A DNA stretch of 64,000 bases from contig NZ_OBEN01000004.1 in assembly GCF_900215655.1 (NCBI RefSeq), forward strand, positions 1 to 64,000, in the 5' to 3' direction. Source of the DNA: Hydrogenobacter hydrogenophilus (lineage in GTDB: Bacteria > Aquificota > Aquificia > Aquificales > Aquificaceae). This document shows positions 81 to 56,576 of this stretch, one piece after another. The notes below the pieces were generated by a model. The model was given only the letters and a program-made list of their open reading frames with translations, was not told where the DNA came from and did not search any database. Numbering within the stretch: position 1 is the first letter of the stretch; each line of letters begins with the position of its first letter. Position numbers and translations under genes: made by a program.

Positions 81-103
81 TTTTTAAACAGTCTCCTTTT
101 AAC

Positions 104-20083: not shown

Positions 20084-20113
20084 TTGACGAAATTATAAGA
20101 AAAGTTTATATTC
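20084..20113 (+). promoter_or_regulatory. Probable promoter of the Nar/Nxr-like operon
   Basis: TTGACG (20084-20089) is followed by TATATT (20108-20113) after 18 bp, or TTTATA (20106-20111) after 16 bp. The start codon is at 20165 behind AAAGGAGGC. Confidence 0.5.
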
Positions 20114-20122
20114 ATTATAAGT

Positions 20123-20134
20123 GATCTAAATCAG
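20123..20134. promoter_or_regulatory. FNR/CRP-type dyad TGAT-N4-ATCA
   Basis: TGAT CTAA ATCA is the inner core of an FNR-like site (TTGAT-N4-ATCAA), with the outer T and A replaced by G. It lies just downstream of the predicted -10 box and 30 bases before the alpha gene, a place where a bound protein could repress. Short cores of this kind also occur by chance. Confidence 0.3.
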
Positions 20135-20164
20135 TAAGTGAGTATTTAGTAAAGGAGGCAAGAC

Positions 20165-23100: not shown

Positions 23101-23629
23101 CGGTGATTATGTGTGGGTGGATGCAGACCCTCAGGACAGACCCTTTGTGGGATGGCAGAAAAGGCCTGATGATTACGAGGTAGGAAGACTGCTTTTGAGA
23201 GCCAGAGCTTCCAATAACACACCGCCGGGATGCGCCAAGATATGGTTTAACATGTACGGTTCTTCTCACGGTTCTGTCAGAGGTACAAAAGAAAATCCTA
23301 ATGGACTTGCCAAAAATCCCGATACTGGCTACCAATCTCTTTACAGAAAGGGTAGCCATCAGTCTGTTACGAGAGGTTGGTTCAAGGCTACATTGCAAAC
23401 GGATACCCTCATAAGGAAGAACCTTATGGGTCAGATAATAGGAAAGGGCTTTGAGTTAGATGTTCACGGTCTTATTGGAGCTCCAAGGGAAGGCTTTTGT
23501 AAGATAACCAAAGCCGAAGACGGAGGTATAGGTGGTAAGGGTGCGTGGAGACCTCTAAAGCTTGGCTTTAGACCTATGAACGCCAGTCAGTCTCTTAGAA
23601 GGTATGTAAAAGGCGATTTCATAAAGTGA
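20165..23629 (+). CDS. Periplasmic type II DMSO-reductase-family molybdenum subunit (Nar/Nxr-like alpha)
   Basis: The 1154-residue catalytic subunit binds bis-MGD molybdenum. A twin-arginine signal (TRRDLLKVGG, residues 5-14) sends it out of the cytoplasm. The FS0 cluster region reads C66-x3-D70-x3-C74 with a further Cys pair at 113-114; cytoplasmic NarG has His-x3-Cys-x3-Cys. The stretch GWDNYAFHTDLAPGHP (D268) lines up with the NarG segment carrying the Asp molybdenum ligand, so it belongs to the type II group with Nar, Nxr, selenate, chlorate and ethylbenzene enzymes. Size and the PMVRKGFYEW segment recall archaeal periplasmic Nar and nitrite oxidoreductase. Substrate is not fixed by the sequence; nitrate is the likeliest. 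Confidence 0.75.
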   Translation: MREMTRRDLLKVGGLSLTAIASPSFALRVMEPVVKVENPLSSYPNRDWEKFYRDIFKSETTFTFLCAPNDTHNCLLTAHVKNGVITRIEPSYKFGEATDIYGLRASHRWDPRCCNKGLALMRRFYGDRRVKGPMVRKGFYEWYKAGFPRDPKTGKPPEKYFQRGKDKFIKVTWDEVADIIAKTIINIASTYSGEEGRKKLEAQGHYPKPMLDAMEGAGTRTLKFRGSMPFLAVVRYTSPYRFANMLAILDSLIRGVEPDKAIGGRGWDNYAFHTDLAPGHPMVTGQQNTEFDLCMWEHSRLIILWGMNPFTTKMPDCHWLTEARIKGSKVIVISNDYSPTARASDEVIVVRTGTDTALALSIAYVIMKEKLYQDRYVKSFTDMPLLVRMDNGKLLRARDLIPNYQPKPLKKAVVFKPGDPLPPFYKQEKQYIPAPIRNDDMNDFVVWDTKTNSPKVITRDDVGEDFWKLGIDPALHGTYKVKTVDGKEVEVKPLFQVYLEFFGKNYTPKQAELITGVPAKKIEKLAREIAAHPRNLKLAQGMGVNQYLHGDLKDRAMYMICALTDNIGHPTGNIGSYAGNFRLALFNGAPQYLAEDPFNVELDPEKPAKVRFYWKPESAHYYSHDDHPQYMGDHLITGKTHMPTPTKFVWFVDANSILGNAKWKYNIIMNTLPKIECIVTNEWWWSLTCEYSDIVLGVDAWNENKYWDIAGSVTNPFVYVWPKTGHRRFFDTKNDAEAFALVANRLTELTGDERFRNYWKFVLEGKQDIVYVQRVINASSNLRGYKLEDIAKKAHEGIPSLIMTRSYPKYVGEDQTRESKPWYTKSGRLEFYREEPEFMDAGENLPVYREPVDSTHHEPNVIVARPHPLLRPKKPEDYGVSSKEALLNTEWRQARNVLVEPEKLPGTKHPLMVTFGATHIVHTPKYRHSAHTTTGDTDITVLLFGPFGDIYRHDKRMPFVSEAYIDINPKDLEKMGIKDGDYVWVDADPQDRPFVGWQKRPDDYEVGRLLLRARASNNTPPGCAKIWFNMYGSSHGSVRGTKENPNGLAKNPDTGYQSLYRKGSHQSVTRGWFKATLQTDTLIRKNLMGQIIGKGFELDVHGLIGAPREGFCKITKAEDGGIGGKGAWRPLKLGFRPMNASQSLRRYVKGDFIK

Positions 23630-23641
23630 GGAGGTTTAGTC

Positions 23642-24751
23642 ATGGCTAAAGGTTTTAACTGGCAACTTGGCAGGGAGATAAACTATCCCTACGAGCCGAA
23701 AAGACCCAAAAGGCAGTTTGCGGTAGTTATGGACCTAAACAAGTGCATAGCCTGTCAGACATGCACCATAGCGTGCAAAACCACATGGACTCCGGGCAGG
23801 GGTCAGGAGTACATGCTGTGGAACAATGTGGAAACTAAGCCTTGGGGCTTTTATCCTCTTGGATGGGATGTTAAACTGCTTGAGCTTCTGGATGGGGATA
23901 AAAAGACTGTATTTGACGCACCGGAAGGGGAAAGGATACTGGGTTGGAAACCTGACGATCTTGACTGGATGTATCCGAACATAGGAGAGGACGAGGTGAA
24001 CGAGCCTGTAGATATAGGAACTGTCATAGAATCTTTCCCCCACCCCATATGGATGTTCTACCTTCCGAGAATTTGCAACCACTGTACTTATCCAGCATGT
24101 GTTGCAGCATGCCCAAGACAAGCCATATACAAGAGGGAGGAGGACGGTATTGTTCTTATTGACGCCGAAAGGTGCGAAGGTTATCAGGAGTGTGTTAAAG
24201 CATGCCCTTACAAGAAGACCATGTTTAACTTCGTAGCGAGGATCTCCCAAAAGTGCATAGGTTGTTTTCCTCGCGTGGAGGAAGGCTTACAGCCTCAGTG
24301 TGTGATAACCTGTATAGGTAAGATAAGGCTCATGGGTTTTATAAACCCACCAGAAGGAGCAAGGCAGGAGAATCCCATAGATTTCCTCGTGCACATAAAG
24401 AAGGTTGCTCTTCCCCTCTACCCACAGACAGGACTTGAGCCCAATGTTTACTACATACCTCCCATCAATGTACCCTTAAGGTTCTTAAGGCAGATGTTTG
24501 GACAGGGAGCAGAGCATGCGGTGAAGACATATATGGCTATGAGAGAAGGAAAAGAGCCTGAGCTTCAGGCGGTATTGCACCTCTTTGGTTCAACACCGTA
24601 CATACCTCATTCCTTTGCTGTAGGACCCAATGAGGTAATAGCTTACGACGAGAAAGGAAAGGAAATAGTAAGGGTTCCTCTTGTTGAGCCCCTTCAGTAC
24701 AGACCGCATAAAGATGAAAAGCTTGATGTTGTTAGACAGGACATACCCTAA
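23642..24751 (+). CDS. Iron-sulfur beta subunit of the type II molybdoenzyme
   Basis: The 369-residue electron-transfer subunit carries four cluster motifs: CIACQTCTIACK, CNHCTYPACVAACP, CEGYQECVKACPYKK and a last group CIGCFPR...CVITC. In the third motif Tyr stands where NarH has Trp, which marks a [3Fe-4S] cluster. It has no own signal peptide, as usual for subunits exported together with the Tat-tagged alpha subunit. NarH-like inserts after the first motif are shared with NarH, NxrB and EbdB. It starts 12 bases after the alpha gene behind GAGGAGG. Confidence 0.82.
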   Translation: MAKGFNWQLGREINYPYEPKRPKRQFAVVMDLNKCIACQTCTIACKTTWTPGRGQEYMLWNNVETKPWGFYPLGWDVKLLELLDGDKKTVFDAPEGERILGWKPDDLDWMYPNIGEDEVNEPVDIGTVIESFPHPIWMFYLPRICNHCTYPACVAACPRQAIYKREEDGIVLIDAERCEGYQECVKACPYKKTMFNFVARISQKCIGCFPRVEEGLQPQCVITCIGKIRLMGFINPPEGARQENPIDFLVHIKKVALPLYPQTGLEPNVYYIPPINVPLRFLRQMFGQGAEHAVKTYMAMREGKEPELQAVLHLFGSTPYIPHSFAVGPNEVIAYDEKGKEIVRVPLVEPLQYRPHKDEKLDVVRQDIP

Positions 24752-24764
24752 GGGAGGTTTAACC

Positions 24765-25607
24765 ATGAGGACATTAAAAATCCTTCTTTTTGGTATTGCA
24801 TTCCTTGGCTTTGCTTCAGCTCAAGAGCTTCTTTCAAAAAGAGTTCAGGAAGTACCCACAGATCCCTTCAGCAAAGTTTGGGATAACGCACCCGCAGTGG
24901 AAGTATCTCTTTCTGGTCAGGCGGTTACCACACCTATGGAGTTAAAACCTTCTGTTAATAAGATAACGGTTAAAAGCGTCAACGACGGCAAGTACATAGC
25001 CTTTTTGCTGGTATGGGAAGACAAGACAAAGGATAGCTTCCATCTTGTAGGTAAGTTTTCCGACGCTGTAGCGGTGCAGATACCTTACAAGCCTTCCCCA
25101 GACACACCTGTGACCATGGGCGACAAAGGACAAAGAGTTCTCATACTACACTGGACTGCTGCAAGACAGGAAAACATAGACCACGGTTATACAGATGTTC
25201 CAAAGGTGTATCCCAATTTTACTTACGACTGGTATCCTCATGCAATGCCTCCTTATAGATATCCGGAAGACTGGGCTAATCAGTACGCACTAAACTACAT
25301 AGGTGGGGAAAAGGTCTTTAGGAAGAACACCCTGAAAACACCTGTAAGAGAAGTGGTTGCGGAAGGTTATGGCTCTTCAACATGGAAGGATGTTCAAGGT
25401 GCAGAAGGTAAGGGTGTTTACAAGGACGGTAAGTGGTATGTGGTTATAAAAAGAGCCTTTATTGAGGAAAACACGAGCAACCCAGAATGGGGACCTGGTA
25501 AAGAAACCTTTATAACCTTTGCAGTCTGGGACGGTTCCAACGGAGAAGTGGGAGCAAGGAAGTCTTTAAGCTATTCGTGGATACCTTTAAAGATAGAGGG
25601 TAGATGA
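24765..25607 (+). CDS. Heme-b gamma subunit of the type II molybdoenzyme
   Basis: The 280-residue protein has a Sec signal peptide (cleavage near GFASAQ) and the fold of the ethylbenzene dehydrogenase gamma family (EB_dh), whose members bind one heme b through Met and Lys. Recognisable stretches are SVNDGKYIAFLLVWEDKTKD, FSDAVAVQIPYK and AFIEENTSNPEWGPG. It replaces the membrane cytochrome NarI, so the complex should be periplasmic and exchange electrons with soluble cytochromes. ATG 24765 is preferred because AAGGGAGGTTT and the signal peptide begin there. Confidence 0.75.
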   Translation: MRTLKILLFGIAFLGFASAQELLSKRVQEVPTDPFSKVWDNAPAVEVSLSGQAVTTPMELKPSVNKITVKSVNDGKYIAFLLVWEDKTKDSFHLVGKFSDAVAVQIPYKPSPDTPVTMGDKGQRVLILHWTAARQENIDHGYTDVPKVYPNFTYDWYPHAMPPYRYPEDWANQYALNYIGGEKVFRKNTLKTPVREVVAEGYGSSTWKDVQGAEGKGVYKDGKWYVVIKRAFIEENTSNPEWGPGKETFITFAVWDGSNGEVGARKSLSYSWIPLKIEGR

Positions 25608-26281
25608 CAATGAGTGTATTGCACAGAGCTTACATTTATCAGTTTCTTTCTTTAGCCTTTTTTTATCCACAAAAGGAGCTCCTTGAGGAGCTTGAGGAGG
25701 GGTTGCACGACCTCTCCCTTTCCTTTAAGACACTCCAGATGCAGGTAGATCTTGAACCTTTCAAAAAGGCTATCGCGGAAGCGAAAGAAAGGGTTATTGA
25801 TCTGCAAGGTGAATGGAATGCTCTTTTTTCAACAACCCTCAAAGCACCAGCCAATGAGACCGCTTATGAACTGGAAAAGGCGGGAAGAAAGGCGGTGGAG
25901 CTTGCGGACATAGAAGGTTTTTACAAAGCTTTCGGTTTAGAGGTAAAGTCTCCTTACGAACCTGATAGCATAGTTGCAGAGCTTGAGTTTACTGCTTTCC
26001 TGCTGAGAGGTAAGATGTGGGCTGAACAACAGGGAAACGCTGAAGCTCAAGAGGTTTATGAGAACGCCTTTAGGTCCTTCTTTAGGGATCATTTGGGGAG
26101 GTGGTACAGGATATTCACCGATCTTCTGAAGGAACACTCAGAAGAGAACTACTATAGACATTTGGGAGAGCTTCTGAAAAGTTTTCTGGACAAGGAGAGG
26201 GAAGGAATAGAAGGTATAGTAGACCTTAAAGAATACAGAAAGGAGGTTCTTGAAGGAGTTAGCTGGAAGTGTGGTACTTAA
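25604..26281 (+). CDS. TorD/NarJ-type assembly chaperone of the molybdoenzyme
   Basis: The 225-residue all-helical cytoplasmic protein matches TorD/DmsD/NarJ chaperones, which hold the alpha subunit and its Tat signal until cofactor insertion. It shows the N-terminal YIYQFLSLAFFYPQKELL pattern and the family motif EPDSIVAELEFTAFLLRGK near residue 120. An ATGA overlap links it to the gamma gene; ATG at 25610 is an alternative. The gene order alpha-beta-gamma-chaperone is that of ethylbenzene dehydrogenase rather than of ser/clr/ddh operons. Its stop codon overlaps the convergent lnt stop. Confidence 0.78.
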   Translation: MTMSVLHRAYIYQFLSLAFFYPQKELLEELEEGLHDLSLSFKTLQMQVDLEPFKKAIAEAKERVIDLQGEWNALFSTTLKAPANETAYELEKAGRKAVELADIEGFYKAFGLEVKSPYEPDSIVAELEFTAFLLRGKMWAEQQGNAEAQEVYENAFRSFFRDHLGRWYRIFTDLLKEHSEENYYRHLGELLKSFLDKEREGIEGIVDLKEYRKEVLEGVSWKCGT

Positions 26282-27612
26282 GGATCCATTAGCTTTATAT
26301 CATACACAAGAATACCTCTTTTCATGTAAGGTATTTTTTTTAGCACCTTCCCTGATGGATCTATTACCGCTGTGTCTCCTGAGTTATTCACCCAAAGGAC
26401 GAACTTGGCGTTCTCTAAGGCTCTTACTCTTGCCCAAGTGAAGTGTTGGTGCGTGCAGTCGCTGTTGTTAAACCACCCGTCGTTAGTGAGAACCACTATA
26501 AGGTTTGCCTCTTTTGACAGTTTTCTCACCAAGTCCCAGTAAGCTACTTCAAAGCAGATGGGTGTAGCCAGTCTTATGTTCCTGTAAGTTATAGGTTTCC
26601 AAGTTTTACCGGGTGTGTAGTCTATACCTGCTATTGCGGAAAAGACATCCTTTAAGAAAGCAAAAGGAAAGGGCACATACTCACCAATAGGAAGAAGCCT
26701 TATCTTGTCATAGTAGCCTACTAATTGACCGTCCTTTATTAGATAGGCAGAATTATAAGGCTTTAGACCTTCTCTTATGTCTATGAGGCCTACTAACAGA
26801 GGTGCTTGAAAGCTAAGTTCAAAAAACTCATTCCTGTCTTTGTCAAATTCATCGGAAAAAAAGAAAGGAAAGGCGGATTCTGGAAGCACTACAAGGTCTG
26901 GCTTTTCTTTCAGAGCGGACCTGACCAAGGAAAGTATCTCTTTTGTGTGTTTTCTAAACTCTTTTTCGGTGAGCTTGTCTTCCTGAGGTATTGCTGTTTG
27001 TACTAGAGCTACTTTTATGGAAACTGCGGAACTAAGTTCTTTCAAAAGTGTGTGCTTAGCATACAAACCCGTCAAAAAAACGAGCATCAGCAAAAAAAGT
27101 AGTGGTACTACTTTTCTTTTGAAGAGGAAGTAAGCCACATACCACATAAGGAGGCTCTCACCGTAAACGGTAAAAAAACGCAGTGAATACTTTGCAATGG
27201 GGATGTAAGTGGATATTTCACCTAATACAAGCCAAGGAAAGCCACCGTAAGGCAGATAAGACCTTATCACCTCAAAGAGAGAATAAAAAAGGGGTAAGGT
27301 CCATAAGCTATGGCTTAGCTTTTTCCATAACATTAGAGGTAGGTTCATTTGGTAAAAGGTGAGAAAAAGGGCAAAGATGGAAAACAAAGCGTAAGCCAAA
27401 AAGGGATTAACACCTCCATACTGTATGCTGGCTATGTTGACACATTCTAAAGATATGAAGAAGAAGGTAAAGCCTGCTAAAAAGTAATGTCTGTGATTGG
27501 GGTTTGCCAAAAGCATTAAAAGTGCTGGGAAGATCAAAAACCAAAGCTCGTAGCGAGAAAAGGGAAGATAAAGCAAAACTCCGTTAAGTATTGCAAGGAT
27601 AAACACTCTCAT
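26278..27612 (-). CDS. lnt: Apolipoprotein N-acyltransferase
   Basis: Lnt adds the third acyl chain to lipoproteins in the inner membrane. The 444-residue protein has about six N-terminal membrane helices and a C-terminal nitrilase domain with the catalytic set Glu (VLPESAFPFFF), Lys (YDKIRLLPIGEYVPF) and Cys (TPICFEVAYWD). Near the end come TNDGWFNNSDCTHQHF and RALENAKFVLWVNNSG. It is somewhat shorter than the E. coli enzyme. It overlaps truB by ATGA and is the last gene of a long minus-strand run. Confidence 0.88.
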   Translation of the reverse strand: MRVFILAILNGVLLYLPFSRYELWFLIFPALLMLLANPNHRHYFLAGFTFFFISLECVNIASIQYGGVNPFLAYALFSIFALFLTFYQMNLPLMLWKKLSHSLWTLPLFYSLFEVIRSYLPYGGFPWLVLGEISTYIPIAKYSLRFFTVYGESLLMWYVAYFLFKRKVVPLLFLLMLVFLTGLYAKHTLLKELSSAVSIKVALVQTAIPQEDKLTEKEFRKHTKEILSLVRSALKEKPDLVVLPESAFPFFFSDEFDKDRNEFFELSFQAPLLVGLIDIREGLKPYNSAYLIKDGQLVGYYDKIRLLPIGEYVPFPFAFLKDVFSAIAGIDYTPGKTWKPITYRNIRLATPICFEVAYWDLVRKLSKEANLIVVLTNDGWFNNSDCTHQHFTWARVRALENAKFVLWVNNSGDTAVIDPSGKVLKKIPYMKRGILVYDIKLMDP

Positions 27613-35985: not shown

Positions 35986-36013
35986 AATATAGGCTTTTTA
36001 GACTTTCTTACAA
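35986..36013 (-). promoter_or_regulatory. Promoter of rpoD
   Basis: On the minus strand TTGTAA (36008-36013) and TATATT (35986-35991) are separated by 16 bp, 28 bases before the rpoD ATG. The -35 box overlaps the stop codon of the ABC ATPase gene. Confidence 0.55.
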
Positions 36014-36664
36014 CACTAAAAGTCCGTCCTTCATCTGCAGTATCCTGTTTGCTTTTTTTGCCAGCTCAAGTTCGTGGGTAACCATAACCACAGTTGTACC
36101 AGACCTGTTTATCTCCTGTAGTATCTGCATGACAATTGCGGTGTTTTTGCTATCTAAGTTGCCTGTAGGTTCATCTGCTAATATTACTTCTGGATTGTTG
36201 GCTAAGGCTCTGGCTATGGCTGTTCTTTGCATCTCCCCTCCTGATACTTGGTAAATTTTTCTCTTCTCCTTACCCCCAAGCCCTAAACTTTTAAGAAGCT
36301 CACGAGCTCTTTCTTCTGCTTGCGGTCTTTGTATGCCCTTCTTTAACATTGGGATCATGACGTTCTCAAGCAAAGTAAATTCAGGAAGCAAGTAATGAAA
36401 CTGAAAAACAAAGCCTATACTTTCGTTCCTTATTCTGGAGACCATCTGGGAATCCATAGAACTAACTTGTTGTCCCTTGAAAAACACTTCGCCCTCTGTA
36501 GGAAAATCAAGAAGTCCCATTATGTAGAGCAAGGAGCTTTTCCCAGAACCAGAAGCGCCTATAATCGCTAAGAATTCTCCTTTATGGACCTTCAGGTCAA
36601 TACCTTTTAGTATTTCTTCACTGCCTACTCTCTTTTTTACATTAATAAGCTCTATCAGAACCAT
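36008..36664 (-). CDS. ABC transporter ATP-binding protein, LolD/MacB type
   Basis: The 218-residue ATPase has Walker A IIGASGSGKSSLLYIMG, the signature VSGGEMQRTAIARAL and Walker B EVILADEPTGNLDS with the LolD/MacB-type TGNLDS ending. It energises the permease encoded directly upstream (one-base overlap). The three genes adaptor-permease-ATPase suggest a MacAB- or DevBCA-like exporter acting across the periplasm. A LolCDE role is the alternative, but a membrane-fusion protein is not part of Lol systems. Confidence 0.82.
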   Translation of the reverse strand: MVLIELINVKKRVGSEEILKGIDLKVHKGEFLAIIGASGSGKSSLLYIMGLLDFPTEGEVFFKGQQVSSMDSQMVSRIRNESIGFVFQFHYLLPEFTLLENVMIPMLKKGIQRPQAEERARELLKSLGLGGKEKRKIYQVSGGEMQRTAIARALANNPEVILADEPTGNLDSKNTAIVMQILQEINRSGTTVVMVTHELELAKKANRILQMKDGLLVL

Positions 36665-37908
36665 CAGCCACTTCTGAATATATCCACAGGGTTTAGCCTA
36701 CTCGCTCTGTAAGATGGATAGAAACTTGCAAAAAAGGAAAAAAACATAGAGAAGATAAAGGCATACAGGTAATATATGGGTCTTCTGTCTAATATGAAGC
36801 CTTTAGTTCTTATAAGTCCTTCTACATCAAGCTTCACCGAAGAAAGATACTCCTGAAGAGCATAACCCAAAATAAAACCCAATATGGCTCCAAAGAACCC
36901 TATGGCTAATCCTTGTGCGAGAAACATGAAAAGTATGTCTCTTCTACTGTATCCCATTGCCATAAGTATAGCTATGTCCTTTTTCTTTTCTAAGACGGTC
37001 ATCATAATAATGTTGAAAATACCAAAGGCGGAAACGGTCAGTATGGCAAACACTATCATGTATGTTATGAGGTTCTGTATTTTGAATATCTGAAGGAAGT
37101 TTATATAAGCTCTCTGCCAACTCTCCACATCGTACCTGAGATTTTTCTGAAGGTCTAAGGCTATCTTCTGGGCTTTGTTTACATCCTTTACTTTTATCAC
37201 TATTTCATTCACTTCGTCAGGTCTGTCTGTGAGGGCTTGCAAAGTTTTTATGTGCATGTAAACTCTACTGTTATCTATGTTAGTTATGCCTGAGTTAAAA
37301 AAGTCTTCTATCTTGAGCAAAGCTGTGCGACCGTTTGCCAAAGAGAGGATCACCTTCTTACCTGTGTCCTTTATACCCAAGTCCTTAGCTACCAGCTTAC
37401 CAACTATTAAAGCGTCTTTGTTTGTCTTTAGTTTTTCTATTCTCTTGTTTTCAAGAAACCTGTTTATCACAGATGCCTTTGGTTCCATGTCAGGGTCTAT
37501 GCCTATGAGTGTAACAGGTTTTTCTTTAACACCGTACTTGAGAATACCTCTTGCTACAAGGTGTACCGCTACACCGGCAATGTCTTCCCTTCTCTGTACT
37601 TCTTTGATTATGTCCCTCCAACCTACGATCCTGTCCTTCTCTTTTGGTTTGTTGCCGTAAACTTCCCATATGTTATCCTGCTTAGCTTTCTTTACTATTC
37701 TGTCTTCTTCCTCATACTCTTTTGGTTTTATACTTATGTGAGCTTCCAAGTCTATGACTTGCTGGATAAAGTAGTTCTGAAAGCCAAACATGAGAGAACT
37801 CATAACTATTAACGCACAGACCCCAATAGCAACACCTGCTACGGAAACAAGGGTCTGCCTTTTTCTCTCAAGAAGGAGCTTGTAAGCTATGAAGAGCGTG
37901 TGATTCAT
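36664..37908 (-). CDS. ABC transporter permease, FtsX/LolE/MacB type
   Basis: The 414-residue permease has one N-terminal membrane helix, a large periplasmic domain (about residues 45-265) and three C-terminal helices, the FtsX-domain layout. The ILTVSAFGIFNIIMMTVLEK and DIAILMAMGYSRRDILFMFL segments are typical of LolC/E and MacB mechanotransmission permeases. It lies between the adaptor (ATGA overlap) and the ATPase. The substrate could be a lipoprotein, lipid or peptide. Confidence 0.8.
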   Translation of the reverse strand: MNHTLFIAYKLLLERKRQTLVSVAGVAIGVCALIVMSSLMFGFQNYFIQQVIDLEAHISIKPKEYEEEDRIVKKAKQDNIWEVYGNKPKEKDRIVGWRDIIKEVQRREDIAGVAVHLVARGILKYGVKEKPVTLIGIDPDMEPKASVINRFLENKRIEKLKTNKDALIVGKLVAKDLGIKDTGKKVILSLANGRTALLKIEDFFNSGITNIDNSRVYMHIKTLQALTDRPDEVNEIVIKVKDVNKAQKIALDLQKNLRYDVESWQRAYINFLQIFKIQNLITYMIVFAILTVSAFGIFNIIMMTVLEKKKDIAILMAMGYSRRDILFMFLAQGLAIGFFGAILGFILGYALQEYLSSVKLDVEGLIRTKGFILDRRPIYYLYAFIFSMFFSFFASFYPSYRASRLNPVDIFRSG

Positions 37909-39011
37909 TCTACAATCACCTTATCACCTTTCTTTAAACCTTCAATTATTTCAATGTATCCATCTACCTGACTCCCAACCTTGACGGGCACTTTGACCTT
38001 TCTAACCCTTTCGTACTTATAAACATATCCGTCTTTGTAAGCGGAGATGGGTATGACCAGAGCTTTTTTCTCCTCCACCAGTATGTTTGCCTCCACGGTG
38101 GCACCTGCTGGAACTTCTGCAGGCAGCGGAGCACTTGCTCTTACCTCAAGGGTTTTTTTGTTCCTGTCAAGTTCCTCCTTTACAAGCTTTACAGTCCCTT
38201 CAAACACCTTATCTGGGTAAATGTCAAGAGAAAGAAACACTTTCATACCTCTCTTTATCATGGAAGCGTATTCCTCGTCTACATTAAGAACTACCTCTTT
38301 ATCTTTCTCATTTCCTATGCTGAAAAGCTTGTTATCACTCATATAATTTACATAGTCCCCTACTTCCACATATCTGTTAAGCACTATACCATCAACAGGA
38401 CTTCTTATGTAATACCTTTCTATCTCCCTTTTTATCTTCTCTTTGTTTGCGTAAAGGGTTTTCTCTTCTGACTTAAGGGAAGTTATGGCATCCTCATATA
38501 CAGCGAGCGCTCGCTGGTACTCACTTTTGGCGTTTTCGTAAGATCTTTTTGCCTCTTCGTACTGCTCCTTTGGTATGAGTCCCCTTTCTGAAAGGTTTTT
38601 TCTTCTTTCAAGATACCTTTGGGCTTGTTCCATATTTCTTTTAGTTATATCCACCTGCTCCTGCAAGCTCTTTCTGTAGTCTGAATCCTCTCTGAGTCTT
38701 TCTCTGACGAGCTTTAACCTTTCCTCAGCTTCTTTGAGTGAAGCAAGCACTGGTCCTGGATCAATAACGGCGAGTATCTGTCCTTTCTTCACTTTGTCCC
38801 CTTCTTTTACCCTAATCTCCTGTATGTATCCAGACACCTCGGATTTTACCACTACATAATTCACGGGCTTTACATAGCCAGAAGCGTAAACTACTTTCTT
38901 TATAGGTCTTTCTTCTACCACAAAAACCTTTACTTTGTTGCTTTTGTAAAAAACCACCAAAAGAGCACCAACTGTGAGTAAAACCCCTAATGGGAAAAAC
39001 AGTTTTTTCAT
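37905..39011 (-). CDS. Membrane fusion protein (MacA/DevB-like adaptor)
   Basis: The 368-residue adaptor has an N-terminal membrane anchor (KLFFPLGVLLTVGALLVVFY), a lipoyl domain half (GYIQEIRVKEGDKVKKGQIL), a long alpha-helical hairpin (residues about 90-190), the second lipoyl half (YYIRSPVDGIVLNRYVEVGD) and a beta-barrel end. Such adaptors link an inner membrane pump to an outer membrane channel. The first gene of a three-gene exporter operon. TATAAT on the minus strand lies about 25 bases upstream. Confidence 0.82.
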   Translation of the reverse strand: MKKLFFPLGVLLTVGALLVVFYKSNKVKVFVVEERPIKKVVYASGYVKPVNYVVVKSEVSGYIQEIRVKEGDKVKKGQILAVIDPGPVLASLKEAEERLKLVRERLREDSDYRKSLQEQVDITKRNMEQAQRYLERRKNLSERGLIPKEQYEEAKRSYENAKSEYQRALAVYEDAITSLKSEEKTLYANKEKIKREIERYYIRSPVDGIVLNRYVEVGDYVNYMSDNKLFSIGNEKDKEVVLNVDEEYASMIKRGMKVFLSLDIYPDKVFEGTVKLVKEELDRNKKTLEVRASAPLPAEVPAGATVEANILVEEKKALVIPISAYKDGYVYKYERVRKVKVPVKVGSQVDGYIEIIEGLKKGDKVIVE

Positions 39012-39045
39012 AGGCTAACTTTTTTTCATGTTATATTATATCCCT

Positions 39046-39062
39046 ATGCTCTCTACAGACCT
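39046..39062 (+). repeat. Truncated copy of the fabG start (left copy of a 17-bp direct repeat)
   Basis: ATGCTCTCTACAGACCT differs at one base from the first 17 bases of fabG (40077-40093). It is followed by a stop codon after six codons, and it ends directly at the stop codon of the dehydrogenase gene. It looks like a leftover of the original fabG start. Confidence 0.6.
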
Positions 39063-40052
39063 TTAGACTATCTCAAACCTTCCCAAAGAACCATGTTTTA
39101 AAAACATCTCTATACACTCAACTGTACATTTTCTTATATTATTCACTGCCTCTTTTGTGTAATAAGCTATATGAGGAGTGATTATAACATTATCTAAGGT
39201 TGAAAGCTTGATTATCTTCAGGTTTTTATCTGAAGCTAAACCCCTTTCGTAAGATTTGAGTATTAGGAATTCTTCGTCTTCAAAAACATCTAAGCCAGCT
39301 CCCCCAAGCCTACCTTGCATAAGAGCTTCGTAAAGAGCATCCGTATCTACCACCTTGCCCCTTGAGGTATTTATAAGTATGGCACCTTCTTTCATCAACT
39401 TTATCCTTTCACCGTTTATCATGTGATGGGTCTGTGGTGTGTAAGGTATGTGTAAAGAGATAATGTCGCTCTCTCTTAAAACCTTTTCAAGGTCTGTGTA
39501 ATTCACACCTAAGGTTTTAAGCTCTGTGTTCTCAACTACATCATAAGCCAAAACTCTGGAACCTAAGAGATGTAGTATCTTTGCAGTCCAGCTACCTATC
39601 CTTCCTGTTCCTATAACTCCAACTGTCAGATCCGCAAAGGTCTGTGCCTCAAGCTCATTATCCTGAGAGAAGTTCAGGTTTCTAATTCTCTTTTCTATCT
39701 TTTTGAACTTTCTGACGAGAGCAAACATCATAGCTATTGCGTGTTCTGCCACAGACCTTGGGGAGTAAGCGGGCATGTGGGCTACTTTTATACCCTTTGA
39801 TTTACAGTAATCAAGGTCTATGTGATCATAACCAACAGAACGCGTAACTATTAGTTTTAACCTTTTGAATGCCTCCAATCTATCCCTGTTTAGTTTGTCA
39901 AAGACAAATACGCACAGTATGTCTGCATCCTCCACTTCACTTAGGTTTATAAGGTCCAAATGCTTATCGTAAAAGACAAGCTGGTATTCCTTCAAATGAT
40001 TTGCATAGTAATCTACATCTTCTTTTCCTACTTCTGTGAAAACTATTTTCAT
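39063..40052 (-). CDS. D-2-hydroxyacid dehydrogenase (D-lactate dehydrogenase-like)
   Basis: The 329-residue NAD-dependent enzyme has the Rossmann motif TVGVIGTGRIGSWTAKILH near residue 145 and the catalytic Arg (LIVTRSVGYDHID or NTSRGKVVD), Glu (GLDVFEDEE) and His (ITPHIAYYTKEA) of the family. The overall form is nearest to LdhA-type D-lactate dehydrogenases, but other 2-hydroxy acids are possible. It is divergent from fabG with 24 bases between starts and is bracketed by a direct repeat of the fabG start, which suggests insertion at this place. Confidence 0.8.
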   Translation of the reverse strand: MKIVFTEVGKEDVDYYANHLKEYQLVFYDKHLDLINLSEVEDADILCVFVFDKLNRDRLEAFKRLKLIVTRSVGYDHIDLDYCKSKGIKVAHMPAYSPRSVAEHAIAMMFALVRKFKKIEKRIRNLNFSQDNELEAQTFADLTVGVIGTGRIGSWTAKILHLLGSRVLAYDVVENTELKTLGVNYTDLEKVLRESDIISLHIPYTPQTHHMINGERIKLMKEGAILINTSRGKVVDTDALYEALMQGRLGGAGLDVFEDEEFLILKSYERGLASDKNLKIIKLSTLDNVIITPHIAYYTKEAVNNIRKCTVECIEMFLKHGSLGRFEIV

Positions 40053-40063
40053 AACTAATATGA

Positions 40064-40069
40064 TATACT
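40064..40069 (+). promoter_or_regulatory. -10 box seven bases before fabG
   Basis: TATACT lies seven bases before the fabG ATG. On the other strand TATATC (40062-40067) lies nine bases before the dehydrogenase ATG. The two boxes overlap in a 24-base divergent gap and neither gene has a Shine-Dalgarno site. Confidence 0.5.
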
Positions 40070-40076
40070 AATCTTT

Positions 40077-40826
40077 ATGCTCTCTATAGACCTATCGGGA
40101 AAAAAAGCACTCATCACAGGTTCCACAAGGGGTATAGGCAGGGCAATAGCAGAGTACCTTGCATCAGCAGGTGCAAGTATTGTGATCACAGGAAGAGACA
40201 GATCAAGAGCTCAGGAGATCGCTAAAGAGCTTTCTGATAAGTACTCAGTTCCTACTTTTGGCACAAGCATCAACTTGGAAGACCCAAATTCTGTAAGAGC
40301 GTGCTGTGAAGAGATACAAAGTAAGGTGGGGGATATAGACATACTTGTGAATAACGCAGGCATAACCAAGGACAAACTTTTTTTAAGAATGTCCTTAGAA
40401 GATTGGGAAGAGGTATTAAAGGTGAACCTAACAGGCACTTTCTTGATAACATCTTTTTTTGTAAAGGATATGGTCAAAAAAAGGTGGGGCAGAATAATAA
40501 ATGTATCTTCCGTGGTTGGTTTTACAGGGAATGCGGGGCAAGTCAACTACTCCACTACAAAAGCGGGTCTTGTGGGTTTTACCAAAAGCTTGGCAAAGGA
40601 GCTCGCAAGCAGGAACATAACGGTTAATGCGGTAGCACCGGGCTTTATAGAAACTGATATGACTTCCCTACTTCCAGAAGACCTAAAGCAGGAATATCTG
40701 AAGGGAATACCTCTTGGTAGGTTTGGTAAACCCGAGGATGTAGCTGGTGCGGTGCTTTTTCTGTGCTCCCCTTTAGCTGACTACATAACTGGAGAGGTCA
40801 TACACGTAAATGGTGGCATGTACTAA
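40077..40826 (+). CDS. fabG: 3-oxoacyl-ACP reductase
   Basis: FabG reduces 3-oxoacyl-ACP with NADPH in fatty acid elongation. The 249-residue short-chain dehydrogenase shows ALITGSTRGIGRAIAEYLA (cofactor motif), DILVNNAGITKD, the catalytic Ser in INVSSVVGFTGNAGQVNYST, Tyr-x3-Lys (YSTTKAG), VNAVAPGFIETDMT and a C-terminal GEVIHVNGGMY. It is followed by topA after three bases. The first 17 bases recur at 39046. Confidence 0.9.
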   Translation: MLSIDLSGKKALITGSTRGIGRAIAEYLASAGASIVITGRDRSRAQEIAKELSDKYSVPTFGTSINLEDPNSVRACCEEIQSKVGDIDILVNNAGITKDKLFLRMSLEDWEEVLKVNLTGTFLITSFFVKDMVKKRWGRIINVSSVVGFTGNAGQVNYSTTKAGLVGFTKSLAKELASRNITVNAVAPGFIETDMTSLLPEDLKQEYLKGIPLGRFGKPEDVAGAVLFLCSPLADYITGEVIHVNGGMY

Positions 40827-40829
40827 GAG

Positions 40830-42434
40830 ATGAAGCTCTTCATAGTGGAGTCTCCAACAAAAGCCAAGTCCATATCTAAGTATTTGGGAAAAGATTGGAT
40901 AGTTAAGGCAACACTGGGACACATAAAAGACCTTCCAGAAAGATCCTTGGGGGTAGACCCAAAGACCTTAGAACCTAAGTATGTGTGGCTAAAAGGTAAA
41001 AAGAAACTGGTGGAAAACATAAAAAAGATCGCAAAAAATGCCCAAAAGATCTATTTGGGAACAGACCCAGACAGAGAGGGAGAAGCCATAGCTTACTTTT
41101 TAAAGGAGGAGCTTTCCCGTGTGAATGGCAGAATTTACAGAGCTATGTTTTACGAAATTACCAAAAATTCCATACTTAAAGCGGTTCAAACAGCTAAAGA
41201 CATAGATTTAAACCTTGTGCACGCACAGTTTGCAAGAAGAGTGCTTGACAGACTGATAGGATACAAGCTCTCACCCCTTTTGTGGAAGGAACTCACAACA
41301 AAAGGTTTGTCTGTTGGGAGAGTTCAATCTCCTGCTCTTAGGCTAATAGTAGAAAGGGAGAAGCAGATTCAGAGCTTTAAAAAGAAAAAGTATTACTACA
41401 TAAAAGTAGATTTTGAGAAAGACGGTGTGAGCTTTTCTGCAGTTTTCCAACAGAGGTTTGAAAAGCCCTCCAACGCAGAGCCTTACCTAAAGAAGCTAAA
41501 GGATACCATGTTTGTTGTAAATGCTGTAAAAAAGGAAAAGTCCATATCCGACCCACCAAAACCTTTTAATACCGCGAGCCTACAATCAGAAGGTAGCAAA
41601 AAACTCAACTTAAGTGTTAGTGAGATACAGAAAATAGCCCAAAAGCTATACGAAGAAGGATACATCACATACCCAAGAACAGACAGCTACAGAATGAACC
41701 AAGAGAAAGCTCAAGAGTTTATAGCTTTTATAGAAAAAAATTACGGAAAGGAGTATGTGGGAAAACTTAGGAACTTCAGAGAGGGAAGGCTCTCCCAGTC
41801 TGCACACGAATGCATAAGACCCACAAGCCTGAGAAAAAAACCTAAGGAAGGCATAGAACTAAAGCTATACTTGCTTATAAGCTCAAGAACCCTTGCGAGC
41901 CTATCTTCCCCTGCAATAATAGAAAAGACCTATGTTAGTCTAAATCCTATAACTGACGAAGCTCTTGAGTTTTTTGCAGAAGGTGAGGATTTACTGTTTG
42001 ATGGTTGGATGAAAATCTACGGAAAGGAATGGGAAGGTAAAAAACTTCCTGAGCTTACACAGGGAGATATACTAAAACCAAAAAGGATATACATAGAGGA
42101 AAGGGAGACACAGCCCCCACCAAGATACACAGAAGGAAGCCTTGTGAAAACTTTAGAGCGCTTAGGCATTGGAAGACCATCCACTTACGCAACCATCGTG
42201 AAAACCCTAAAACAAAGAGGGTATGTAGCTGTTGAAAAAGGACATTTAAAGCCTACAGAGATAGCCTTTAAGGTGGTTGATTATCTTATGGAAAAGTTTC
42301 CAAGTCTTATGGATTATAGTTTTACTGCAAACATGGAAGATATGCTGGATGAGATAGAGGAAGGTAGAAAAGACTGGAAACTTATAACCAAAGAAATTTA
42401 TAGGAAAGTGCTTCATGAGTACACTCAAGAGTAA
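40830..42434 (+). CDS. topA: DNA topoisomerase I (type IA)
   Basis: The 534-residue enzyme relaxes negative supercoils. It has the Toprim domain (KLFIVESPTKAKSISKYLG, TDPDREGEAIAYFL), the catalytic Tyr in YEEGYITYPRTDSYRM, and PPPRYTEGSLVKTLERLGIG with RPSTYATIV. It ends shortly after the core, so the C-terminal zinc-ribbon domains of longer bacterial enzymes are absent, as in Aquifex. The 3' end overlaps the next gene by 20 bases. Confidence 0.9.
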   Translation: MKLFIVESPTKAKSISKYLGKDWIVKATLGHIKDLPERSLGVDPKTLEPKYVWLKGKKKLVENIKKIAKNAQKIYLGTDPDREGEAIAYFLKEELSRVNGRIYRAMFYEITKNSILKAVQTAKDIDLNLVHAQFARRVLDRLIGYKLSPLLWKELTTKGLSVGRVQSPALRLIVEREKQIQSFKKKKYYYIKVDFEKDGVSFSAVFQQRFEKPSNAEPYLKKLKDTMFVVNAVKKEKSISDPPKPFNTASLQSEGSKKLNLSVSEIQKIAQKLYEEGYITYPRTDSYRMNQEKAQEFIAFIEKNYGKEYVGKLRNFREGRLSQSAHECIRPTSLRKKPKEGIELKLYLLISSRTLASLSSPAIIEKTYVSLNPITDEALEFFAEGEDLLFDGWMKIYGKEWEGKKLPELTQGDILKPKRIYIEERETQPPPRYTEGSLVKTLERLGIGRPSTYATIVKTLKQRGYVAVEKGHLKPTEIAFKVVDYLMEKFPSLMDYSFTANMEDMLDEIEEGRKDWKLITKEIYRKVLHEYTQE

Positions 42435-43416
42435 GTTTGTAGGAACTATAATAGGCTCGGCTTTGGGAGATGCTATAGGCAAGTGCGTGGAGGAGATCAC
42501 CATAAAGGAAGTCTATGACTTTTATGGTGGTCCAGTAGAAGGTTTTGTGGAACCTCATCCTCTTAGTCCTGCATACGGATCTGCACCGCAGGAAGTGTCT
42601 GATGAAACAACAATAACCCTTATACTTCTTGAAAGCATAGTGAGCAAAAAGGCAATAGATCCCTATGACTTTTACAACAGACTGCTTGCTTGGAGGCAGG
42701 ACGAAAAAAGCCATAGATACCCTGACCCTGCCTTACTAACAGCTCTTGACCTTCTGTCTTCTGGTATATCTCTTGAAAATGCTGGTTTTGTATCTGCAAG
42801 CGTTGAAGGTATTTTGAGATGCATCGCAGTTGGAATGTTCCACTTTTATGAACCTACGATAGCTTCTGAGGGGGCAAGGCTCGTTTCCATAATGACCCAC
42901 AGAAGTCCAGAGGTTTACGATGCGAGTTCCATGCTTGCAGTTTTTATATCCTACCTTCTTAAAGGGGATCATGACCTTAGGGATCTCTCGCAGAGGTTAA
43001 AGCTTCTGGAAACGCTTGGGTCATTTGCGAAATATAAAAAACATAAATCTTACATAGATAAAGTGAAGGAACTCCTTGAGTGTGGAGCAACGCTGGAAGA
43101 AGCCATTTACAGCATAGGCAACTCCACTTATGTCTTTGAAGCCTTTCCCATATCCCTCTTTATTTTCCTCTCCCACATAGAACATCCCATGAGTGCCTTT
43201 TGGTCTGCGGTAAACTCCTACGGAGAGTTTGGAGGCGATACGGATGCCATAGGATACTTAGTAGGTGCTTATATAGGCGCTTATTGGGGGGAAAGCGTCT
43301 TCCCACCATACCTTGTTGAAAACTTAGAAAATTCAGGTTATTATATTTCTTTAGCACAGAGGCTCTACGGCATAGTAGAAGAACACATAGAAAGGAGGTT
43401 AGAAGATGCCCTATAA
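42415..43416 (+). CDS. ADP-ribosylglycohydrolase family protein (DraG-like)
   Basis: The 333-residue protein has the metal-binding marks of DraG-type ADP-ribosyl hydrolases: GTIIGSALGDAIGKCVEE, VSDETTITLILLE (S-D-x-T), and SYGEFGGDTDAIGYLVGAY (GGDTDAIG). Such enzymes remove ADP-ribose from proteins or nucleic acids. No ADP-ribosyltransferase gene is in the window, so the partner is unknown. It is coupled to topA upstream and hfq downstream by overlaps. Confidence 0.82.
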   Translation: MSTLKSKFVGTIIGSALGDAIGKCVEEITIKEVYDFYGGPVEGFVEPHPLSPAYGSAPQEVSDETTITLILLESIVSKKAIDPYDFYNRLLAWRQDEKSHRYPDPALLTALDLLSSGISLENAGFVSASVEGILRCIAVGMFHFYEPTIASEGARLVSIMTHRSPEVYDASSMLAVFISYLLKGDHDLRDLSQRLKLLETLGSFAKYKKHKSYIDKVKELLECGATLEEAIYSIGNSTYVFEAFPISLFIFLSHIEHPMSAFWSAVNSYGEFGGDTDAIGYLVGAYIGAYWGESVFPPYLVENLENSGYYISLAQRLYGIVEEHIERRLEDAL

Positions 43417-43648
43417 GTTGCAGGAGAGCTTTTTAAACACCGCAAGGAAGAGAAGGGTAAAGGTGACCATATACCTTGTGAATGGAGTTAGACTTCAAGG
43501 TAGGGTAAGATCCTTTGATCTGTATACTATACTTATAGAAGATGGGAGGCAACAGACCCTTGTTTATAAACACGCCATAACCACGATAATACCTGCAGAA
43601 AAGCTTGAGATAGAGTTTGAAGAAGAGGGTGTGCCTGGGGCTGTGTAA
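43406..43648 (+). CDS. hfq: RNA-binding protein Hfq
   Basis: Hfq is the ring-shaped chaperone for small RNAs. The 80-residue protein matches family motifs: LQESFLNTARKRRVKVTIYL (Sm1), GVRLQGRVRSFDLYTILIE, and the Sm2 signature VYKHAITTIIP. Residues Gln at position 6, Tyr/Phe in the uridine pocket and the YKHA loop are in place; the C-terminal tail is short and acidic. A strong AAAGGAGG site precedes the ATG inside the draG-like gene. Confidence 0.92.
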   Translation: MPYKLQESFLNTARKRRVKVTIYLVNGVRLQGRVRSFDLYTILIEDGRQQTLVYKHAITTIIPAEKLEIEFEEEGVPGAV

Positions 43649-43660
43649 AGCCCCACTCTT
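43637..43660 (+). terminator. Hairpin at the end of hfq
   Basis: GGGGCT (43637-43642) pairs with AGCCCC (43649-43654); the hfq stop codon is in the loop. The following T run is weak (ACTCTT), and the next gene is convergent, so it may serve both strands poorly. Confidence 0.45.
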
Positions 43661-43991
43661 AAAACATACCGGGAGGTTTGCCTTTTGAAACTACAAGCCT
43701 TTCTACGGGTTGATCTTTCTTAAGATGGCTATTGACTATTTCTTCCACATCTTCTAATCTAACATTCCCGTACCACACACCTTCTGGGTAAACCACCATA
43801 GTGGGTCCCATTCCACAGGGACCAAGACAGCCTGTAGGTGTTACTACCACGCTCATAAATAGCTCTGGGTCCATCTGCAGTTTTTCCATGAATTTTTGGT
43901 AAATATCTCTGCTTCCTTTCTCTGCGCAAGAACCCATAGGATGCCCTGGTGGCCTTTGGTTTACGCATATAAAGACGTGCTTAAAATTCAT
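43659..43991 (-). CDS. Thioredoxin-like [2Fe-2S] ferredoxin
   Basis: The 110-residue protein matches the thioredoxin-fold [2Fe-2S] ferredoxin of Aquifex aeolicus (known as Fd4) in length and motif order: FKHVFICVNQRPPGHPMGSC at the start, TPTGCLGPCGMGP in the middle and LVVSKGKPPGMF at the end. Four cysteines (one in FICV, one in GSC and two in GCLGPC) ligate the cluster. Its electron partner is unknown. AGGAGGT five bases before the ATG at 43991 supports this start over the longer frame from 44069. Confidence 0.88.
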   Translation of the reverse strand: MNFKHVFICVNQRPPGHPMGSCAEKGSRDIYQKFMEKLQMDPELFMSVVVTPTGCLGPCGMGPTMVVYPEGVWYGNVRLEDVEEIVNSHLKKDQPVERLVVSKGKPPGMF

Positions 43992-44068
43992 TACATACCT
44001 CCTGTAGCTTTTTGTTAAGTATTTTAGCAGATGCTCAGAAGTTCCCATTATGAGATACATCATGACCA

Positions 44069-44833
44069 TTAGAGCACATCATAAAAACCTCTTTTGAGAA
44101 GTTTGTAAACAAGCGCACCTAAAACTAAGGATACACAAGATATTATCAAGGAAATGATAAACAGTTTTAGGTCTATATAACCTTTCAACAATGAGGTTTG
44201 GACATTCCTGAGCATATAAAAAAGTGGGTTAAAAAGGAGAAAGGGTTTGAGAGGCTCAGGCACATAAGAAACGGGGTATATGATGGGTAGAGAGTAAAAG
44301 ACAAAACTTAGGAGGGTTGAAACTATCTGAGAGATGTCTCTTACATACACACACAGACTTCCCAAAATAAGAGTTAAGCCAGCAACAAAGCAAAGTTCCA
44401 CCATGAGCACTGGAATTAGCGGTATTAGGTGAGTCAGACTTTGCGGGAAGTCCTTGAGTAAAAGGGCGTACCCCAGAGAAACAAAGGTGTATATGAAACC
44501 TGTTATGGTGGAAGCAAGCACAAAAAGGTATGGTGGTACGGCGGTCTTCTTTAGCAGGTAAGCGTTGTCTGTTATAGAGTTCATACCCCTGATTAAAGAC
44601 TGGCTGAAACCATTCCAAAAGGCAAGTCCCGTGAGAAGATAAACTGTATAGCTTGCACCCTCTGTAGCATCAATAGGAAACCTTGCTCTCACTATATGTT
44701 GAAATATAAGGTAAAAAATTCCTGTCATGAGAAGAGGGTTTAAAAACATCCACAAAGTACCAAACATAGACCCTGCAAAAGACATTTTTATGTCTCTTTT
44801 CACAAGCTGGTACAAAAGGTAATAGTTATGCAT
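44069..44833 (-). CDS. ABC-2 type polysaccharide/polyol export permease
   Basis: The 254-residue integral membrane protein has six predicted helices and the ABC-2 pattern of KpsM/Wzm/TagG permeases: LVKRDIKMSFAGSMFGTLWM at the N-terminus (amphipathic helix and first helix), LLKKTAVPPYLFVLA, and FNPLFYMLRNVQTSLLKG near the end. It should export a surface glycan with an ATPase partner, but no such gene is next to it. The ATG at 44833 is chosen by the family N-terminus. A TATAAT on this strand lies about 22 bases upstream. Confidence 0.75.
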   Translation of the reverse strand: MHNYYLLYQLVKRDIKMSFAGSMFGTLWMFLNPLLMTGIFYLIFQHIVRARFPIDATEGASYTVYLLTGLAFWNGFSQSLIRGMNSITDNAYLLKKTAVPPYLFVLASTITGFIYTFVSLGYALLLKDFPQSLTHLIPLIPVLMVELCFVAGLTLILGSLCVYVRDISQIVSTLLSFVFYSLPIIYPVSYVPEPLKPFLLFNPLFYMLRNVQTSLLKGYIDLKLFIISLIISCVSLVLGALVYKLLKRGFYDVL

Positions 44834-53385: not shown

Positions 53386-54252
53386 ATGGATAGTGATCAC
53401 CTTTTGAGGCTTTGGAAAAATAGCTTAGAAAGAACTAAAAGCCCAAGAACTGTTATTACATACATAAGAAGCTTTGAGTCCTTCGTAAAACACATACAAA
53501 GTCAAGACTTTATCCAAATAGACCCCAAAAGTATATACAGTTATGTGGACGCTTCATTGCTTAACACTTCTTCCATACTTACTCACTTATCTGCTATAAA
53601 GCACTTTTATAAGTTTGCTTTCAGAAGAGGATACATAGACAAGGAAAGATACTCACATATAGAAACGGTCATAGACGAAGTGAGAGAGGAAATAGGAAGG
53701 AATGTAGCGGATAGATATCCAAAGGCTTTATCAAAGGAAGAAACCAAGAGAATTCTATCGGCGGTACATGGGACTAAGTACGAGAAGGTATACATGCTTC
53801 TTCTTCACAGCGGTGTAAGACTTTCTGAGTATCTTGCCCTTAGGAAAAGCAATTTTTATCAGGACAAAAGTGGTCTTTTATGGATAAGGCTTTCTGCAGA
53901 CATCACCAAAGGTAGAAAGGAAAGGCTCGTTCCCGTCTTAGGAAGCACAAAAGAAGAAACATACGAAGCTACACATAAGTTGCTTGAATGGATAGAGTCG
54001 TACGATGAGAACTTTAAGGTCAAAAGGGGATCTCTTCAAGTTTATACTAACCGATTGTCCCACAGATTGGGAATTCCTTTTTCTGTGCATAGCTTTAGAC
54101 ATACCTACATAACAAATTTAGTAAATAGTGGTTTTCCTGCTGAAGTGGTAAAAGAGTTTGCAGGACACTCACACATAAGAACTACCATAGACATATACTA
54201 TAAGTTTAGTCAGGAAAGGGCAAGACAGTTAGTAGAAAGCTTTCTAAAATGA
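53386..54252 (+). CDS. Tyrosine recombinase (XerC/D-like)
   Basis: The 288-residue protein has an N-terminal SAM-like DNA-binding domain (residues about 1-95) and a catalytic domain with Arg I in LLHSGVRLSEYLALRK, the beta-hairpin Lys in ITKGRKERLVPV, HSFRHTYITNL (His-x2-Arg), GHSHIRTTIDIYYK (His and the nucleophile Tyr). It most likely resolves chromosome dimers; no integrated element or att sites are seen around it, and I found no dif-like site nearby. It is coupled to trmD by ATGA. Confidence 0.82.
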   Translation: MDSDHLLRLWKNSLERTKSPRTVITYIRSFESFVKHIQSQDFIQIDPKSIYSYVDASLLNTSSILTHLSAIKHFYKFAFRRGYIDKERYSHIETVIDEVREEIGRNVADRYPKALSKEETKRILSAVHGTKYEKVYMLLLHSGVRLSEYLALRKSNFYQDKSGLLWIRLSADITKGRKERLVPVLGSTKEETYEATHKLLEWIESYDENFKVKRGSLQVYTNRLSHRLGIPFSVHSFRHTYITNLVNSGFPAEVVKEFAGHSHIRTTIDIYYKFSQERARQLVESFLK

Positions 54253-55766: not shown

Positions 55767-56188
55767 CTTTCAATTCCACACGGTACATTAGAAACTCTTT
55801 TGGAAGACCTGCACCACCTAAGATTACAAGAGCTTTCAATTCCACACGGTACATTAGAAACACAAAAACATAGCGAGTATGTGGATTAAAAGTCTAATCT
55901 TTCAATTCCACACGGTACATTAGAAACGTGCAAAGGGCTATAGTGAAGTATCTTTCACAATACTTTCAATTCCACACGGTACATTAGAAACAAAAAAGAG
56001 ATTCTCATGATTGAAAGAGAACACATACCTTTCAATTCCACACGGTACATTAGAAACTGTAGGCACTACTACACTTAATCCTGCATTGTCTACCTTTCAA
56101 TTCCACACGGTACATTAGAAACCTTCAGGAGTGCCATAAACTCTTAGCTTGTAGTAAGGCTTTCAATTCCACACGGTACATTAGAAAC
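55767..56188 (-). CRISPR. CRISPR array, seven repeats and six spacers
   Basis: Seven identical 29-base repeats (plus-strand form CTTTCAATTCCACACGGTAC + ATTAGAAAC) lie at 55767, 55833, 55899, 55963, 56029, 56094 and 56160. Six spacers are 37, 37, 35, 37, 36 and 37 bases. The reverse complement begins GTTTC and ends ATTGAAAG, the usual 5' crRNA tag form of type I-B/III systems, so transcription runs leftward on the minus strand. The leader is therefore to the right (from 56189). No cas gene is in the window. All repeats being identical indicates no decay at the trailer end. Confidence 0.97.
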
Positions 56189-56576
56189 CCCAAAAGGGAT
56201 ATTCAAGAAAAACATTATACATCAACACTTTGCTAAAAGGGTACCCTTTTCAAATGAAGTTAATTTTCGGAAATCTTCAGTTCCCAAAAAGAGGCTGAAA
56301 AATTACCATTCCTAACTATTGAAACTCAACAGTTCCAAAAGTACCTCATCAAAACATCAAAATGCCAAAATGTTTTGATGAAGACATCAAAGGTATACTA
56401 CCCCTCTTATCTTACAAACACAGTCCTTATTCAACTGTCAAGATGACAAGGGGCTTATAAAACCACTCAATCCTTTTTTTATTTTAACCCTTAGAGAGAG
56501 AAATTGCTTATGATATATATCATAAAGTGTGTGAAGGATACTATTTGTCCGCAAAAGATTTTATAATTAACTTTTA
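56189..56576. other. CRISPR leader and upstream gap (388 bases without a gene)
   Basis: No open frame is supported. On the minus strand TATAAT (56214-56219) would start transcription about 20 bases before the first repeat. The perfect palindrome AAAAGGGTACCCTTTT (56235-56250) covers the -35 position. Further right come an 11-bp inverted repeat (56347-56357 with 56370-56380) and a dyad TGTCA-AGA-TGACA (56436-56448). The right end holds the -10 of the lytic transglycosylase gene. Confidence 0.6.
56562..56567 (+). promoter_or_regulatory. -10 box nine bases before the lytic transglycosylase gene
   Basis: A perfect TATAAT lies nine bases before the ATG at 56577, with no Shine-Dalgarno site. Confidence 0.5.

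Follow-up and report, generated by a model that had tools for sequence, protein, structure and literature searches.

Gene organization of the fabG locus

The window is the whole 64-kb stretch of DNA analysed here, and all positions refer to it. It belongs to genome G000, a hot-spring Hydrogenobacter, in a comparison set of five species of the genus, G000 to G004. At the locus, an ABC exporter operon on the minus strand and fabG on the plus strand point away from each other, and a D-2-hydroxyacid dehydrogenase gene lies between them (Table 1). The block of genes downstream of fabG is kept together with fabG in G001–G004, and the flanks on both sides vary.

Table 1. Features at the fabG locus of the window
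Feature	Position	Strand	Basis
LolD-type ATPase, ABC exporter operon	36008-36664	-	profile matches
LolC/E-MacB-type permease, ABC exporter operon	36664-37908	-	profile matches
HlyD/RND-type periplasmic adaptor (mfp), ABC exporter operon	37905-39011	-	profile matches
Whole ABC exporter operon	36008..39011	-	colinear with G002:C10 as far as 39062
Old divergent promoter region, CATGTTATATTATATCCCT	39027..39045	.	identical, including the next ATG, in G002
fabG-facing -10-like TATTAT in the old promoter region	39034-39039	+	box spacing
TATAAT upstream of mfp, within the old promoter region	39027..39045	-	read from the sequence
fabG relic (left copy), first 17 nt, cut at codon 6 and continuing into the dehydrogenase stop	39046..39062	+	
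D-lactate / D-2-hydroxyacid dehydrogenase, 329 aa, between the copies	39063..40052	-	PF02826 and PF00389
New fabG promoter region	40053..40076	+	common to G001 (2-nt indel), differs from G002
-10-like TATACT, new fabG promoter	40064-40069	+	7 nt ahead of the ATG
fabG, 3-oxoacyl-ACP reductase	40077..40826	+	TIGR01830 over cut-off
topA, ADP-ribosylglycohydrolase-like gene and hfq-like gene	in 40830..44069	+	block conserved with fabG
Thioredoxin-like [2Fe-2S] ferredoxin	in 40830..44069	-	block conserved with fabG

Elsewhere in the window, 6.5 kb at 19800-26290 encode a molybdopterin oxidoreductase, a 4Fe-4S subunit and a nitrate-reductase-delta-like chaperone. This stretch is absent here in G002, and in G003 and G004 it adjoins the exporter operon. 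The joint sequences were inspected once, and no clear repeat was seen at them. The first 95 bp of the window (1-95), at the contig start, occur again in identical or almost identical form at many other contig ends; they are probably a dispersed repeat at which the assembly breaks. The region 55767-56533 is repetitive, with similar copies on C1, C2, C3, C6, C10 and C11 (75-87% identity) and in other species.

A direct repeat of the fabG start

The first 17 bases of fabG occur twice. As the first-pass annotation reported, the left copy ATGCTCTCTACAGACCT (39046-39062) differs by a single base from the right copy ATGCTCTCTATAGACCT (40077-40093), and directly after the last base of the left copy comes the stop codon of the dehydrogenase gene (TTA on the plus strand, 39063-39065). 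The translations it gave, MLSTDL-stop for the left copy and MLSIDL for the fabG start, are correct. Both copies also follow ATC(C/T)(C/T)T as it described, which brings the repeat to an ungapped 23 nt with 20 identical positions (39040-39062 and 40071-40093). The same annotation had considered that the repeat might be a common dispersed element. The whole 1.6-Mb assembly contains no further site with fewer than two mismatches to the 17-mer; a dispersed element is therefore ruled out, and nothing suggests a mobile or regulatory role for the repeat itself.

An extension of the repeat into the promoter was tried and rejected. A gapped 35-nt alignment exists, and its promoter part is no better than that of other upstream regions bearing a -10 box. 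Of 75 other upstream regions that have a spaced -10 box, 7-9 align equally well, so we do not count the TAT-rich likeness ahead of the two copies as evidence of homology. Within about 2.2 kb, a 17-mer that matches the fabG start with no more than one mismatch has a chance probability of about 1e-5. Over all pairs in the 64 kb, however, about 10 pairs of equal quality are expected by chance, so the repeat on its own, spotted by eye, is weak evidence, suggestive and not compelling. This expectation, together with promoter parts that resemble each other no more than other upstream regions do, would suit a 17-mer that arose accidentally upstream of the exporter, with a promoter likeness that reflects only a common -10 box. 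The case for the repeat rests on its position and on the comparison with G002.

The empty site in G002

In G002, mfp and fabG are direct divergent neighbors with no dehydrogenase between them, and the G002 FabG is 94% identical to that of the window. To the left, the two sequences are homologous over 12.8 kb, up to and including the final base of the left copy (39062). Past the equivalent of this base the G002 sequence goes on into fabG, and homology to the right side of the window resumes at 40060. The G002 position orthologous to the left copy is fabG's own start (C10:12720-12736), and 22 bases, CATGTTATATTATATCCCTATG, are identical between the left copy of the window and the start of the intact fabG of G002. 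For a relative that lacks the dehydrogenase, the first-pass annotation had predicted just one copy, adjoining the ABC exporter operon. G002 bears this out, and its one fabG start lies exactly in the place of the left copy. G002 is the one empty-site genome among the five species. In other genera, fabG starts match the 17-mer at 12-14 of 17 positions, and the 17-mer is absent from mfp upstream regions elsewhere.

The G002 junction, the identical 22 bases and the fabG starts of the family identify the left copy as a relic of an earlier fabG start. A junction between exporter and fabG thus predates the present dehydrogenase arrangement. An accidental 17-mer is extremely improbable in this light, since the same position in G002, in unbroken synteny, is a real fabG start behind the same 22 nt. 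The relic and the G002 17-mer agree at 13 of 17 bases, for which the chance is 2e-5.

The locus in the other Hydrogenobacter species

In G001 (Hydrogenobacter sp. KUB_Bin01) the dehydrogenase gene is divergent from fabG and the promoter is the right-hand promoter of the window, with a 2-nt indel only. The arrangement is thus not private to the window genome; its dehydrogenase-fabG half is present in G001. Homology between G001 and the window is 89% over 5,006 bp and begins at window position 39062, at the dehydrogenase stop codon. The exporter operon of G001 is on another contig. The two dehydrogenases are 92% identical in amino acid sequence, and the next best match is 63%.

On the left side, the 3' end of the G001 dehydrogenase gene directly abuts an FCSD flavoprotein pseudogene (L031:8457-9393). 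This FCSD gene has lost about 40 N-terminal codons and has several frameshifts, and it is intact in the other four species; the left flank of G001 is thus clearly a secondary, later rearrangement. G001 is for that reason uninformative on whether the relic ever adjoined its dehydrogenase, and it was discarded as a witness for the left joint.

The secondary nature of this flank fits an alternative in which the filled state is the older one. The common ancestor would have had the order exporter, relic, dehydrogenase, fabG; recombination between the 17-bp repeats would then have removed the dehydrogenase in G002, and a later rearrangement the left side in G001. A deletion between short direct repeats yields exactly the G002 sequence. 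The presence of a fabG start beside mfp is, however, left unexplained, and an older junction of exporter and fabG is still required. In addition, fabG of G003 and G004 adjoins neither mfp nor the dehydrogenase and has yet another divergent neighbor. We consider an older filled state unlikely.

No close relative of the dehydrogenase was found in G003 and G004, where the best match is a distant PGDH-like gene. Among the genomes searched, this dehydrogenase lies at fabG only in G000 and G001. In three genomes from another family of the order (G034, G039 and G032; loci L026, L027 and L030), a D-2-hydroxyacid dehydrogenase of a different clade is located directly upstream of fabG and is co-directional with it, possibly an independent association.

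The dehydrogenase and its second locus

The dehydrogenase matches the NAD-binding domain PF02826 (E 2e-56) and the catalytic domain PF00389 (E 3e-34), both above cut-off, and no NCBIfam equivalog is over its cut-off. The closest solved sequence is 3kb6, a D-lactate dehydrogenase (E 5e-115). The translation contains the motifs NTSRGKVVDTDAL, GLDVFEDE and ITPHIAYYT, which by the usual pattern of the family carry the presumed catalytic Arg, Glu and His. The reaction of the enzyme is probably the conversion between pyruvate and D-lactate. In a maximum-likelihood tree, the gene falls in an Aquificota clade together with the Aquifex gene, and its nearest relative is the 63% identical gene of G002. 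Phylogeny had been proposed as a check for signs of transfer; it gives no distant donor, and the gene stays within the Aquificota D-lactate dehydrogenase clade. G007, which carries a 57% identical gene, is presumably Aquifex aeolicus. Its D-lactate dehydrogenase belongs to the same D-2-hydroxyacid dehydrogenase clade as the Hydrogenobacter copy but sits at another locus.

The 63% identical gene is the only close relative of the dehydrogenase in G002. It lies between purB and purL (L068:4261-5274, C34). In G000 (C2:129427-129443) and in G001, purB and purL are separated by an empty spacer of 15 bp, so that purB-purL forms a second pair of filled and empty sites for the D-lactate dehydrogenase family. 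In the five-species set the close D-lactate dehydrogenase occupies one or the other of the two loci, never both. The identity of 63% is far under the 84-97% usual for G000-G002 orthologs, which suggests distinct copies and not one recently moved gene. No direct repeat was found at the purB-purL site. Dating the capture against the G000-G001 split was attempted and given up, as the fourfold-site divergence of the dehydrogenase, 0.22, falls within the 0.14-0.50 of other genes. One could imagine D-lactate dehydrogenase as an itinerant single-copy gene that alternates between fabG (G000 and G001) and purB-purL (G002), each capture being free of transposase, placed at a gene boundary, bringing or supplying the promoter of the neighbor and rewiring a leaderless fatty-acid synthesis gene. 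We regard this generalization as a long shot.

Old and new promoters

A -10-like box (5 or 6 of 6 matches to TATAAT) is placed 6-7 nt ahead of the ATG in 10 of 11 fabG starts, the relic included. Among window genes, such a box at a spacing of 5-8 nt is seen in only 9 of 49. Given this contrast, the fabG transcripts of this family are likely to be leaderless, and the TAT-rich box that precedes each copy would be the -10 element of fabG and not an extra part of the repeat. Directly ahead of mfp, the minus strand of the old region has the sequence GGGATATAATATAAC. This minus-strand TATAAT is identical in G002, and on both grounds the old promoter is probably retained as the promoter of the exporter operon. 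The first-pass annotation had taken the promoter left behind to be dead; that is probably not the case.

How the dehydrogenase came between exporter and fabG

We consider it quite probable that the locus holds a relic of the fabG start, with the dehydrogenase and a new promoter placed between the exporter operon and fabG. In the ancestor, as still in G002, the exporter operon and fabG would have been divergent on one short shared promoter. In the window lineage, D-lactate dehydrogenase and a new fabG-facing promoter would have come between them. fabG would now be read from the new promoter, and the old promoter would have remained with the exporter operon, together with the 17 nt that opened the old fabG. 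The first-pass annotation proposed an insertion at the start of fabG with duplication of the target. Its relic and its captured gene are borne out by the empty site of G002; target duplication is one of two mechanisms that fit.

The other mechanism is homologous recombination with DNA carrying the dehydrogenase, the new promoter, fabG and topA in the order seen in G001. At the right end, the crossover would lie within the common fabG-topA block. The left end would be an illegitimate joint, of the homology-facilitated kind, connecting nucleotide 17 of fabG to the dehydrogenase stop codon. At fourfold sites the exporter genes are 0.43 divergent from G001, and right of the joint, from the dehydrogenase as far as 43416, the value drops to 0.28 (p = 4e-6). 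Divergence to G002 across the joint shows no significant change (0.25 and 0.30, p = 0.13). In per-gene quartets, mfp and the permease group strongly with G002 (delta lnL 23-35), fabG and topA weakly group G000 with G001 (delta lnL 2.2 and 1.2), and the next gene favors G002 (4.0). Tree topologies conflict throughout the window, and the change in divergence at the joint may belong to a general mosaicism; recombination is therefore given about an even chance, and a share of the probability goes to further routes beyond the two mechanisms, the older filled state among them. The relic also has CTCTCT as in fabG of G000 and G001 (16/17), not TTTTCC as in G002 (13/17). Had a G002-like native allele simply been replaced, the opposite similarity would be expected; the comparison involves only 14 informative bases.

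Neighboring genes in the window disagree on whether G000 goes with G001 or with G002 (for example, 15761-16828 versus 17914-19788), which suggests mosaic ancestry among these Hydrogenobacter species. ABBA-BABA-like site-pattern counts are biased by the short branch of G000 and by a distant outgroup, and so were not taken to prove gene flow. Gene order in the genus is much rearranged.

Insertion of a 1,014-bp piece also fits the geometry of the repeat. The 17-bp copies flank a segment that runs from the dehydrogenase stop codon to just before the fabG ATG, and they would be target duplications, or attL and attR of an element that lost its integrase. The empty site in G002 is as predicted, and the copies are closer to each other (16/17) than to that of G002. 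Some integrative elements are known to replace a housekeeping gene's 5' end along with its promoter (PMC8409611). Against this, the dehydrogenase is the sole content of the insert, and 17 bases are long for a transposon target duplication. As the first-pass annotation noted for transposases, there is no transposase ORF in 39063-40076; nor is any integrase or transposase linked to the insert. The only tyrosine recombinase of the window (53386-54252) is 13 kb off and conserved in all five species, and the one other in the genome is on a different contig. Inverted repeats of at least 12 nt were not found in 38800-40300. Of the features of integrative elements, the locus thus has direct repeats and a matching empty site but no integrase, and it has neither the transposase nor the terminal inverted repeats of a transposon or insertion sequence. 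We regard insertion of such a piece as possible and rather doubtful.

Relation to known systems and significance

Homology-facilitated illegitimate recombination is described in Acinetobacter, Streptococcus pneumoniae and Pseudomonas stutzeri (PMC3240628). It has one homologous end and one illegitimate end with resident remnants, and the recombination proposed here would be alike; the illegitimate end is seen in fabG, cut after nt 17 and fused to the dehydrogenase stop codon. Here, however, the process is read from comparison only, and the remnant is the start of the resident gene, not its end. In Vibrio T6SS loci, orphan gene remnants are left by displacement (PMC5361080). There too an incoming module displaces a resident and leaves a fossil of it alongside, but the Vibrio remnant is a whole functional immunity gene and the one here is a 17-nt non-coding stub. 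SXT-like integrative elements target the 5' end of dusA or prfC (PMC8409611), giving the housekeeping gene a new promoter with the old start beyond the insert, as in the window. The 1-kb insert here differs in having no integrase, excision factor or mobility gene.

The locus reveals no new system. The event is ordinary in kind and has left an unusually legible scar of genome rearrangement, with a breakpoint readable to the base and with empty site, filled site and gene-start fossil within one genus. It provides one worked case of gene-order rearrangement at operon edges in Hydrogenobacter, and an example of an essential gene swapping its promoter without loss of function.
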